A stretch of 36,710 nt of DNA from Candidatus Fermentithermobacillaceae bacterium (lineage in GTDB: Bacteria; Bacillota; Sulfobacillia; Fermentithermobacillales; Fermentithermobacillaceae): assembly GCA_012842685.1 (NCBI GenBank), contig DUSI01000039.1, forward strand, positions 1-36,710, given 5' to 3'. The notes under the pieces were generated by a model. It ran no database searches. It had not been told where the DNA came from and worked only from the letters and a program-made list of their open reading frames with translations. Positions 14,404 to 18,131 of this stretch are shown piece by piece. A program made the position numbers and the translations under genes. Each line of letters opens with the position of its first letter. The stretch's first letter is position 1.

Positions 14404-15657
14404 TTGGACCGTTTCGTCTGGGTGATAATTGCCGCTGCCGGCCGGGGCCTGAGGGCCCGAGGAGAAGTCCCGAAGCAGTTCAGGCGCCTTGGCGATTCTA
14501 CCGTGATCGAGACGGTCGTATCTCGCTTTGCCGGGATGCCCGAGGTCGGTGGGATAGTCGTGGCGCTCCCGCCTTCGGGTATCCCCGAGGAAACCGGGAT
14601 AGCCTCGCGCCATATCGAGGCCGCCGGGCGAGGCAGGGTTCCTGTCGTGTGCGTCTCCGGAGGCGAGACGAGGCAGGAATCCGTGAAGAATGCCTTGCGC
14701 TTCCTACCCGAGGACGCCTGCTGGGTGGCGGTGCATGACGCCGCCCGGCCTTTCTTCTCTGATGAGCTTTTCCGGCGGGTGCTCGATGCGGCTCTCTCGT
14801 CGGGCGCAGCTGTCCCTGGGGTTACCCCGTCAGACACCATCAAGCGGGTTTCGGGCGAGTCCGGCGCAGAAGATGCCGAAATAGAAGCCACCCTCGATAG
14901 AAAGATGCTCGTAGCAGTACAAACTCCCCAGATATTCAGGAGAGATATCCTCGTTTCAGCTTACCGCCGGGCAGAGGAAGACGGCTTTTCCGGGACCGAC
15001 GACAGCCAGCTGGTAGAGAGGCTGGGGGTAAGGGTAAGGGTCGTAGAAGGTGAACCGGAAAACGTGAAGCTCACCTATCCTTCCGATTTCGAGAAAGCCG
15101 AGATCTTCCTGGGCCGGAGAGGCATCGCGGAAGGCAGGCCGCAAGACGCATGGGTTACGGTGACCGGATTCGGCTTCGATGCCCATCCTATGGACGAGGG
15201 CCGCCCGTGCGTGCTCGGCGGGGTGACCATCCCCCATTCCAAAGGACCGGCCGGGCATTCTGACGCAGACGTTCTGACCCACGCGGTGATGGATGCCCTG
15301 CTGGGCGCCATGTCGGCGGGAGACATCGGGAAATGGTTTCCAGAGACACCTGAGTATAAGGATGCCCGGAGCGTAGAACTCATGAAAGCGATGTGGGAGG
15401 AGCTTTCGTCCGGAGGAAAAGCCGAGATCATCCACGTGGATACCGTAATCCTCGCCCAGGCTCCCCGTATCGCTCCCTACACCGGCGCAATGAAAGAGAC
15501 TCTTGCCCGCTCTCTCGGGATAGGTCCGCAGAAAATCTCCATCAAAGCGACGACAACCGAGGGTATGGGGTTTGTCGGTCGAGAAGAAGGGATCGCCGCG
15601 TTTTGTACCGCCACAGTAAGAAGAAGTTTGCGATCCGCGTCGAATGAAAGGTCATAA
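14404..15657 (+). CDS. ispDF: bifunctional IspD-IspF (MEP cytidylyltransferase / MEcPP synthase)
   Basis: A 417-residue fusion of two enzymes of the non-mevalonate isoprenoid pathway. Residues 1 to about 235 are IspD, with the nucleotide-binding loop AAAGRGLRARGEVPKQF, HDAARPF and TPQIFR. Residues about 255-417 are IspF, with FDAH (metal ligands Asp259 and His261), GHSDADVLTHAVMDALLGA and the ending KATTTEGMGFVGREEGIAA. IspD makes CDP-methylerythritol; after IspE phosphorylates it, IspF cyclises the product to MEcPP. ispE is not present here. Start TTG at 14404 has GGCGGAG a few bases upstream and sits two bases after the previous stop. Separate ispD and ispF genes are the more common Bacillota arrangement. 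Confidence 0.95.
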   Translation: MDRFVWVIIAAAGRGLRARGEVPKQFRRLGDSTVIETVVSRFAGMPEVGGIVVALPPSGIPEETGIASRHIEAAGRGRVPVVCVSGGETRQESVKNALRFLPEDACWVAVHDAARPFFSDELFRRVLDAALSSGAAVPGVTPSDTIKRVSGESGAEDAEIEATLDRKMLVAVQTPQIFRRDILVSAYRRAEEDGFSGTDDSQLVERLGVRVRVVEGEPENVKLTYPSDFEKAEIFLGRRGIAEGRPQDAWVTVTGFGFDAHPMDEGRPCVLGGVTIPHSKGPAGHSDADVLTHAVMDALLGAMSAGDIGKWFPETPEYKDARSVELMKAMWEELSSGGKAEIIHVDTVILAQAPRIAPYTGAMKETLARSLGIGPQKISIKATTTEGMGFVGREEGIAAFCTATVRRSLRSASNERS

Positions 15658-15693: not shown

Positions 15694-16533
15694 ATGTCGC
15701 AGGAAACCTCGAGGAAGGCCGAACTAAAGGTCAAGGTTTTGTACTACCCCTTCATGGGGACGGGCATAAACACGGAGAGGCTCATCCTCCTTACTCGCCT
15801 GTGTTATTCACCTCTGGGTATCGGGGCATTGGAAGATCTCCTCACTGGCAACAAGCCGTCGGACGAGAAGTGCGGTGAGTTCATAAGGAACCTCATAGAC
15901 ATGGGCCACATGGGCGCTCTCGAACACTGGTACACGACCTTTGCCGTCGAGGGGTACTCCAGGATTTCCAGCCAGCAGAACGACAGGCACAGGCTCATAA
16001 AGGTGTTCAAGGACCACGGCGTGGTCTACATGAACGCCCCGGAGCAAGGCTCGCCCTTTGTATCCCAGCTTCAGCAGTCCCAGCGCTACGTGAAAGAGGA
16101 CAATTTCAGATACGTAACGCCTCCCAGTTTCTCGCGTCATCCCGAGTTCTTGAGGAAATACGAGGAGCTACAGGAACAGGTGTTGAACCTCCAGCGAGAA
16201 GGGCTGTCTCTCGGGCTCCCCGCCGAGGATGTCCGTTTTGCCCTTACAAACGCCACCGAGACCCGGTTCGTGATCACTACCAACGCCCGCCAGCTCAGGC
16301 ACATGTTCAACTTGAGGTGCTGCCAGAGGGCCCAGTGGGAGATCCGGCAGCTGTTTACGAAACTACTTGATGAATATAAGCGGATAGCTCCTAATATTTT
16401 CTACCGTGCGGGGGCTTCATGCGACGACCTCGGGTACTGCCCGGAGGGGAAGATGAGCTGCGGCAGGGCGCCGACTCTCGAAGAACTGAAGGAAGCTTAC
16501 AGGAAAGAACGAGAGAGGGCGAAGACATCCTAA
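15694..16533 (+). CDS. thyX: FAD-dependent thymidylate synthase ThyX with an interrupted signature motif
   Basis: A 279-residue protein that would make dTMP from dUMP with methylenetetrahydrofolate and NADPH/FAD. Family landmarks are GHMGALEHWYTTFAVEGYSR, RHR (residues 98-100), SQLQQSQRY (from Ser124), the TTNARQL block, CCQRAQWEIR and a cysteine-containing tail. The canonical motif RHRxxSxNExSxR has two residues between RHR and Ser; here there are 23 (101-123), so about 21 extra residues split the motif. The frame is intact and codon use is like the neighbours, so this is not a sequencing frameshift. Start ATG 15694 follows GGGAGGGA. Whether the enzyme is active cannot be told from sequence alone. 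Confidence 0.85.
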   Translation: MSQETSRKAELKVKVLYYPFMGTGINTERLILLTRLCYSPLGIGALEDLLTGNKPSDEKCGEFIRNLIDMGHMGALEHWYTTFAVEGYSRISSQQNDRHRLIKVFKDHGVVYMNAPEQGSPFVSQLQQSQRYVKEDNFRYVTPPSFSRHPEFLRKYEELQEQVLNLQREGLSLGLPAEDVRFALTNATETRFVITTNARQLRHMFNLRCCQRAQWEIRQLFTKLLDEYKRIAPNIFYRAGASCDDLGYCPEGKMSCGRAPTLEELKEAYRKERERAKTS

Positions 16534-16576: not shown

Positions 16577-17326
16577 TTGAGGTACGTTAGGATACACGGG
16601 AAGCAGCCGGTTAGCGAAGCCCTGTCAAGCGGGTGGCCCGTGCGCGAAATCGTGGTCAGGCAGGGGTCTAAGGACGCCTTCTTGACCGAGCTGATGTCAA
16701 AGGCCTCATCTTTGGGCATAAAGACGGTTGTTATGGACTCTTCCCAGTTTGACCGGGTGTTTCCCAGGCAAAGCCAGGGCGTGGTGGCTACGGTCAGGGA
16801 AGTGGAGATGAGGAGCCTGGACGACGTGCTCAGGGACATCCCAGCGGGAGAGGATCCCCTTTTCGTCGCCCTAGATGGGATCGAAGACCCTCACAACTTG
16901 GGGGCGATTGCGCGGACTTGCCTCGCCATGGGGGTACACGCGGTGGTGATCCCCAAGAGGAGGACCGCGGGACTCGGCGAGGGGGCGGCCAAGGCGTCCG
17001 CTGGAGCCATCTTCAGGCAGCCCATCTGCCAGGTTTCCAACATCCACTACTTCATCGAGTGGGCCAAGCGGAACGGGATGTGGGTGTATGGGCTCGACGC
17101 CGGAGGCACTTCGGACATTTGGAGCACCGACCTCACAGGCCCGGTGGCCCTGATAATCGGGGGAGAGGATAGGGGGCTTTCGCGGCTTACTCGAGAAAAA
17201 TGCGATTTCCTCATGAAAATACCCATGTTCGGCGAGATTGGCAGCCTAAACGCGAGCGTTGCCTGTGGCATAGCCATTTCCGAATGCAGAAGGCAGAGAC
17301 AGGAAAAGGCCAGCATAAGGCCCTAA
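16577..17326 (+). CDS. rlmB: 23S rRNA (guanosine-2'-O)-methyltransferase RlmB / TrmH family
   Basis: A 249-residue SPOUT methyltransferase. An N-terminal substrate-binding domain (residues 1-75) precedes the knotted SAM-binding domain with the three TrmH-family motifs: DPHNLGAIART (motif 1), IIGGEDRGLSRL (motif 2) and SLNASVACGIAISE (motif 3). E. coli RlmB methylates the 2'-OH of G2251 in the peptidyl-transferase P loop. Start TTG at 16577 with GGCGGAAGTGAGAG before it. In B. subtilis the homologue lies in the cysS-mrnC-rlmB-yacP-sigH segment; here it sits between thyX and sigH, which supports this assignment. Confidence 0.92.
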   Translation: MRYVRIHGKQPVSEALSSGWPVREIVVRQGSKDAFLTELMSKASSLGIKTVVMDSSQFDRVFPRQSQGVVATVREVEMRSLDDVLRDIPAGEDPLFVALDGIEDPHNLGAIARTCLAMGVHAVVIPKRRTAGLGEGAAKASAGAIFRQPICQVSNIHYFIEWAKRNGMWVYGLDAGGTSDIWSTDLTGPVALIIGGEDRGLSRLTREKCDFLMKIPMFGEIGSLNASVACGIAISECRRQRQEKASIRP

Positions 17327-17453: not shown

Positions 17454-18131
17454 TTGACTAATGGCCCGCAGAGGGATCTGTACGCGGCTTTCGAGGCTTT
17501 GCAGGATGAAGAAGTCGTCGAAATAGCCCGTGCAGGGTCGGTGTTGGCGCAGGAGTATCTGATAAACAAGTTCCGGAGTTTCGTAAGGGCAAAAGCTAGG
17601 TCGTACTTCCTTATCGGCGCCGATAGGGAAGACATTATCCAAGAGGGCATGATAGGGCTTTATAAGGCCATACGAGATTTCCGGAGCGACAAGCTGGCTT
17701 CGTTCAAGGCGTTTGCCGAGCTATGCATTACGAGACAGATCATCACGGCAATCAAGACGGCAACACGGCAGAAGCACATTCCGCTCAACTCGTACGTCTC
17801 GCTGAACAGGCCAATCTATGACGAAGACTCAGACAGGACTCTTCTGGATATCATGCCCGGCAATCAGGTTCTCGATCCGGAAGAGATGGTTATCAATACA
17901 GAAGAAATCGGTTCTATGGAGACGAAGATCACCGAGATCTTGAGCGATCTCGAGTGGCAGGTTCTGAACTCGTATCTGGACGGCAAGTCCTATCTTGAGA
18001 TTGCTCAAGATCTGGACAGGCACGTAAAGTCGATAGACAACGCGCTCCAGAGAGTAAAACGCAAACTGGAGCGCTACCTGGATTCTAAGAACGGAACCAG
18101 GCACCAATCGGAGAACGTGGCCGCGAGGTAG
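17454..18131 (+). CDS. sigH: RNA polymerase sporulation/transition sigma factor SigH
   Basis: A 225-residue sigma-70-family factor with region 2 (DIIQEGMIGLYKAIRDF and the following helix through TRQIITAIKTATR) and region 4 (LSDLEWQVLNSYLDGKSYLEIAQDL) but no region 1.1 or full region 3. Sigma-H starts the transition to stationary phase, competence and sporulation in Bacillus. Start TTG at 17454 behind GGGGGAGGGG. It has its own promoter with an embedded inverted repeat and a strong terminator, so it is an independent unit after rlmB. Homologues at this position between rlmB and the rpmG-secE-nusG block are typical of Bacillota. Confidence 0.94.
   Translation: MTNGPQRDLYAAFEALQDEEVVEIARAGSVLAQEYLINKFRSFVRAKARSYFLIGADREDIIQEGMIGLYKAIRDFRSDKLASFKAFAELCITRQIITAIKTATRQKHIPLNSYVSLNRPIYDEDSDRTLLDIMPGNQVLDPEEMVINTEEIGSMETKITEILSDLEWQVLNSYLDGKSYLEIAQDLDRHVKSIDNALQRVKRKLERYLDSKNGTRHQSENVAAR

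Follow-up and report, generated by a model that had tools for sequence, protein, structure and literature searches.

The analyzed window is a stretch of 36,710 nucleotides from an uncultured member of the Bacillota, Candidatus Fermentithermobacillaceae, the nearest named relatives of which are 91% identical. It encodes a FAD-dependent thymidylate synthase, ThyX, in which the two halves of the family signature are set apart by an extra segment. The features of the locus are as follows.

14404–15657, forward strand: ispDF, the upstream neighbor of thyX, presumed from the sequence and general knowledge
15694–16533, forward strand: thyX, 279 aa, an insert-bearing variant of FAD-dependent thymidylate synthase (PF02511 and TIGR02170 scores, fold match)
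15745–15765, forward strand: Y18-P-F-M-G-T-G24, a second clade-specific insertion near the N-terminus, with P19 and G22 invariant in the clade
15955–15984, forward strand: pre-RHR segment Y88-S-R-I-S-S-Q-Q-N-D97 with clade-specific positions; Q95 (Q75 of Thermotoga maritima ThyX) is kept
15985–15993, forward strand: RHR, residues 98–100, the first half of the ThyX signature, equivalent to R78-H79-R80 of T. maritima in the alignment with 1kq4
16000–16062, forward strand: the 21-aa insert, residues 103–123, placed by the break of BLAST matches at 102/124 and by the clade alignment
16063–16092, forward strand: S124-Q-L-Q-Q-S129-Q-R131-Y132-V133, the second half of the signature and the start of the active-site loop, corresponding to S83...S88-G-R90-Y91 of T. 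maritima
16420–16464, forward strand: C-terminal motif C243-x5-C249-x6-C256-G, common to canonical Bacillota ThyX
16577–17326, forward strand: the downstream neighbor, which we take, from sequence and general knowledge, to be an rlmB-type rRNA methyltransferase gene
17454–18131, forward strand: a gene assumed on the same grounds to encode a sigH-type sigma factor

The product of thyX scores 160.4 bits against PF02511 (Thy1), above the cut-off of 24.8, and 127.6 bits against the NCBI equivalog TIGR02170, above the cut-off of 87.9; Thy1 is the only Pfam domain found in the protein. The AlphaFold2 monomer model, built with 55 relatives, has a mean pLDDT of 84.8 and a pTM of 0.82. When compared with solved ThyX-family chains (Foldseek, VIA-align), the model yields Z values of 14.8–19.1, most of them 16–19, and the next unrelated row has a Z of 2.9. 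Among the solved structures, ThyX of Mycobacterium tuberculosis (3gwc, 2af6) is the top match both in sequence and in fold. Thymidylate synthase activity, FAD binding and a homotetrameric state are predicted, with indirect support from the genome, which holds no other candidate for making dTMP.

The preliminary description of this DNA, made from the letters alone, had claimed that the signature is split by an extra in-frame segment, with 23 residues instead of 2 between RHR at 98–100 and S124. Both the translation of the open reading frame and the breaks in BLAST matches bear this out. The codon of S124 occupies nucleotides 16063–16065 and S129-Q-R131-Y132 is encoded by nucleotides 16078–16089, so the motif takes the form of RHR, 28 residues and SQRY. 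With 23 residues in place of 2, the strict signature RHRxxSxNxxSxRY is not matched, but it does not serve here as a criterion of membership, being carried by many, not all, ThyX proteins. Its N is also missing in 102 canonical relatives, which have S, T or D instead, and RHR followed by a spacing of 8 is found in some canonical relatives. The motif could be located in 133 distinct gathered proteins; the stretch between RHR and SxRY measures 7 or 8 residues in 101 of them and 27–44 residues in 32, with no overlap. BLAST matches of the window ThyX to canonical relatives of the same class typically end at residue 102 and restart at 124. Thus, the insert corresponds to residues 103–123, with ends that are set by alignment and may shift by one or two residues. 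The segment lies in an open frame of 279 aa, and its GC content is 0.587 versus 0.558 for the whole of thyX. RHR is invariant in 31 of 31 alignment rows of the insert clade. The possibility, raised in the same description, that another RHR serves in its place found no candidate: it is RHR at 98–100 that matches the RHR of the family, and Q95 and S89-R90 align along with it.

Trivial origins of the segment were considered as well. An assembly error is excluded, as the insert recurs in independent genomes of the order, at the same place and with the same 21-aa length. A pseudogene or a frameshift is excluded by the open frame, purifying selection and the retention of the gene in many genomes. 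ThyX inteins are self-splicing elements that contain splicing motifs and are much longer than 100 aa. An intein or intron remnant is excluded by the length of the insert (20–37 aa across genomes) and its conservation; only Thy1 was found by Pfam.

The catalytic set is complete. Residues H53, Q75, R78, H79, R80, S88, R90, Y91, E144, R147, N163, R165, R174 and Q180 of T. maritima ThyX are kept in the window ThyX and in 100% of the clade rows; R takes the place of H178, and the same holds for 99% of the canonical relatives used. In T. maritima ThyX, R78, R80, S88 and R90 bind dUMP (PMC3498832), R78 faces the reduced flavin, and the active-site loop 86–97 carries Y91, which is paired with H53 (PMC11940539). 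In M. tuberculosis ThyX, the FAD phosphates are bound by RHR (PMC6514825). In T. maritima numbering, the insert falls between RHR, which contributes to FAD and dUMP binding, and the active-site loop with S88, R90 and Y91. The surroundings of the insert are altered in the same clade. Y88, S92, Q94, N96 and D97 of the clade are opposed to mostly V/I, L/T/C, H, L and V, respectively, in canonical proteins. Further fixed substitutions are W79 and T81, located like Y88 in the preceding strand, and Q125 in the returning strand; canonical relatives differ at these positions. Residues P19–G22 of the N-terminal insertion are missing from all canonical rows. From the sequences we infer that the fixed substitutions may represent an adjustment of the surroundings to the insert. 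At the C-terminus, 56 sequences all have C243 and C249, and almost all have C256. This motif is conserved in ThyX of Bacillota and relatives, whether insert-bearing or not (the window ThyX and L019–L078), and a metal or disulfide site is possible there.

Over the clade, the insert is 20–37 aa long (spacer of 27–44 minus the canonical 7), with conserved ends and a variable middle or tip in the clade alignment. RHR is followed by [LIM]-[MIL]-K-x-F-K, in which K103 and K106 are invariant in the clade; beyond the variable tip, P116-x-Q118-x-S120-x-D122 leads into S-Q-L-Q-Q-S-Q-R-Y. P116, Q118 and S120 are conserved at 97%, and position 122 is D in 91% of the clade rows and F in the window ThyX. 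For the insert codons, dN is 0.084 and dS 2.41 against relative L002, and 0.106 and 0.77 against L003, values read from the nearest relatives, dS being saturated for more distant pairs. By this codon comparison, the insert is under purifying selection where dS can be estimated; its dN is about 2–3 times that of the remaining thyX. In the AlphaFold2 model, pLDDT is below 50 at residues 103–120, and a canonical control from the same sequence set (L021) has no such stretch. Helix 90–98 and strand 124–127 of the window ThyX correspond to helix 71–77 and strand 84–87 of the control, which places the insert in the helix-to-strand turn, with the flanking elements kept. The prediction that the preliminary description had proposed as a check, made here for the monomer, hence retains the ThyX fold and both flanking elements and gives the insert low confidence; order of the insert in the tetramer or with ligands is beyond the scope of a monomer model.

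The alignment with relatives, proposed there too, confines the insert to one clade made up of the order, further members of the class and a second class. The insert is found in 17 of 17 genomes of the order, Ca. Fermentithermobacillales, and in four more genomes of the class, from three other families (G302, G356, G433 and G434); it is missing from those canonical-type ThyX of the class that were inspected (L133–L141, where the motif was readable). In the second class of the phylum, 11 of 12 genomes have the insert, and the twelfth, which is 87% complete, gave no match. In a sample of 398 genomes of the phylum, matches at E ≤ 1e-60 came only from insert-bearing groups. In a tree computed after excision of the insert from the data, a single branch with support of 100/100 sets apart the 33 insert-bearing rows, and the insert requires one change, versus an average of 26.8 in shuffles. 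Judged from these sequences, the insert arose once on this tree. At 1.68 changes per column, the stem branch of the insert clade is long, a sign of strong divergence of the clade; with branches of such length, the tree does not settle its exact sister group. No relative was found in viral contigs scanned with the clade alignment, and the best phage match (L209, 36% identity), the motif of which was read, lacks the insert. An ispDF gene precedes thyX in nearly all loci of the order; by eye, IspD and IspF seem to be fused in the window in one 417-aa frame. The order thyX-rlmB-sigH is also found beside canonical thyX, e.g., in L026, L029, L036 and L050. This common arrangement favors vertical descent at a housekeeping locus. 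Recent horizontal acquisition is not supported, as the insert is order-wide and the locus is the same as in canonical genomes. The insert clade is uncultured and no enzyme report was found for it; the insert is thus not a feature of a well-studied clade of known activity. The literature searched contains no report of such an insertion in ThyX, although papers on extended or distinctive ThyX motifs were not covered and may already mention it.

The preliminary description saw no other thymidylate synthase gene in the window and proposed to look for thyA in the rest of the genome. The claim extends to the whole genome searched (97.5% complete), in which the family search found no ThyA and no ThyX other than this one. 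ThyX is present in all 27 insert genomes searched, and no ThyA was found in 26 of them; only in G225 was there a ThyA match, a partial one covering profile positions 108–220, on a contig of unconfirmed genome membership. Neither thymidine kinase (PF00265) nor deoxynucleoside kinase (dNK, PF01712) was found in any of eight genomes of the order and class (G000, G321, G322, G317, G316, G319, G308 and G302), including the single-contig closed genome of Ca. F. carboniphilus (G317). Positive controls were detected in all of these searches, the negatives of which apply to known families and, with the exception of G317, to draft genomes. With ThyA, thymidine kinase and dNK all undetected, ThyX is the only route to dTMP in this organism, barring an unrecognized enzyme. 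Thymidine kinase is present in three tested second-class genomes with the insert (G175, G036 and G114).

From the split, the preliminary description had expected either a new loop at the active site or abolished activity. The former part stands and is likely: the insert separates RHR from the active-site loop, and the ThyX fold persists in the AlphaFold model. The latter does not. Abolished activity appears very unlikely, because the residues for FAD and dUMP are kept and the searches yielded neither a ThyA nor a thymidine kinase or dNK, and the retention of the loop by two related uncultured groups argues for a working variant rather than a broken gene. That the insertion inactivates ThyX and dTMP comes from another, unrecognized source would agree with the interruption of the FAD/dUMP signature, and a ThyX-family protein of Corynebacterium glutamicum NCHU 87078 is indeed dispensable for thymidylate synthesis (entry titles 3fnn/3ge9). 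However, C. glutamicum has ThyA as an alternative and none was found here. Together with purifying selection, conservation across two classes and the intact catalytic set, this makes inactivation scarcely credible. We consider it quite probable, judging by sequence, that the window encodes a functional lineage-specific ThyX, the sole detected dTMP route, in which an ancestral insertion after RHR was fixed as a putative active-site lid or inter-subunit element. In such an enzyme, FAD and dUMP would be bound as in canonical ThyX, and the catalytic cycle would be that of ThyX. Where the RHR helix ends, the insert would begin with a short conserved stem, LMK-[MV]-F-K with K103 and K106, continue into a tip of variable length and rejoin the active-site loop via PxQxSxD. 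In the tetramer, the entrance for dUMP and folate would be covered by the insert, as a lid or as an inter-subunit element, and the remaining pocket would have been re-tuned around it. Loops are known to move in this family: in T. maritima ThyX, both the active-site and folate loops do so (PMC11940539), and PolB offers a precedent for loops near a ThyX-type site that gate substrates (PMC5003785). Their invariance and position lead us to guess that K103 and K106 probably contact a phosphate or the glutamate tail of folate. A stronger version, in which the insert is a new active-site element that alters the chemistry or substrate handling of ThyX, and these lysines, located next to the FAD/dUMP site, take over binding of the dUMP phosphate or folate tail and define a mechanistically distinct ThyX subclass, the sole thymidylate synthase in two uncultured Bacillota classes, is possible but unlikely.

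The insert might also be a structural, oligomer-stabilizing, or neutral surface loop with no catalytic part in an otherwise ordinary ThyX. Its length range of 20–37 aa, the poorly conserved tip, the lack of confident predicted structure and a dN above that of the remaining gene all fit such a loop, but conservation at its ends is strong (97% for P116, Q118 and S120, and complete for K103 and K106), and S92, Q94, N96 and D97 of the RHR helix and Q125 of the returning strand changed in the same clade. We therefore see this as a tentative alternative with a minor, if real, share of the probability. A changed substrate or one-carbon donor set by the insert, e.g., UMP besides dUMP as in PolB, or another folate, appears quite improbable. 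In PolB, a homologue of ThyX, the choice between UMP and dUMP is set by flexible loops and a substrate-recognition peptide (PMC5003785), and the many near-motif substitutions fixed in the clade and its long stem (1.68) would suit such a shift. On the other hand, dUMP methylation must be retained, since this is the only thymidylate synthase found and no salvage route was detected; the mapped dUMP-binding residues are unchanged, and the gene resides in the housekeeping thyX locus rather than in a biosynthetic cluster. If the insert is indeed part of a functional, lineage-specific ThyX, the family signature tolerates an insertion of 20–37 residues between its halves in a seemingly essential enzyme. 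The clade would then offer a natural system in which to examine the control that the active-site loop and the interface between subunits exert over substrate order in flavin-dependent thymidylate synthases. Strict motif searches would overlook enzymes of this type.

Other ThyX proteins of unusual architecture were noticed among the gathered sequences. Those encoded in L145 (745–1905; G037) and L146 (715–1908, minus strand; G176), of 387 and 398 aa, have about 140 extra residues just past the signature SLRY, where Pfam finds only Thy1; by eye, the pattern Y(V/L)RGIF(D/E) in this stretch recalls a LAGLIDADG-type domain. L143, L144, L148, L149, L150 and L151 encode tandem ThyX of 460–674 aa with two Thy1 matches each, in which the ordinary RHR...SxRY signature was not found with the pattern used.

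Among known systems, canonical Bacillota ThyX (Sporomusa, Pectinatus; L019–L025) are 45–48% identical to the window ThyX in the alignment. They share with it the catalytic residues, the CCQRAQWEIR segment, the C-x5-C-x6-C motif and the thyX-rlmB neighborhood, but have neither the insert (RHR + 7/8 + SxRY) nor YPFMGT, and their pre-RHR residues are H-Q-L-V, versus Q-Q-N-D in the window ThyX. PolB (4p5a, 4p5b), a UMP/dUMP methylase, is a ThyX homologue with flexible active-site loops that gate the substrate. It is 18–19% identical to the window ThyX over the structural alignment, its special loops (117–131 and 192–201) are located elsewhere than the insert, and it is an enzyme of an antibiotic cluster. 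ThyX of M. tuberculosis (3gwc, 2af6), unlike the window ThyX, has no insert after RHR. ThyX of T. maritima (TM0449; 1kq4, 1o26, 8reo) has a common fold with the window ThyX (Z of about 17–18), and its R78, R80, S88, R90, Y91, H53, Q75 and R174 are all kept. However, whereas RHR of the T. maritima enzyme runs straight into the active-site loop (86–97), in the window ThyX 21 additional residues stand between the counterparts of T. maritima positions 81 and 83.
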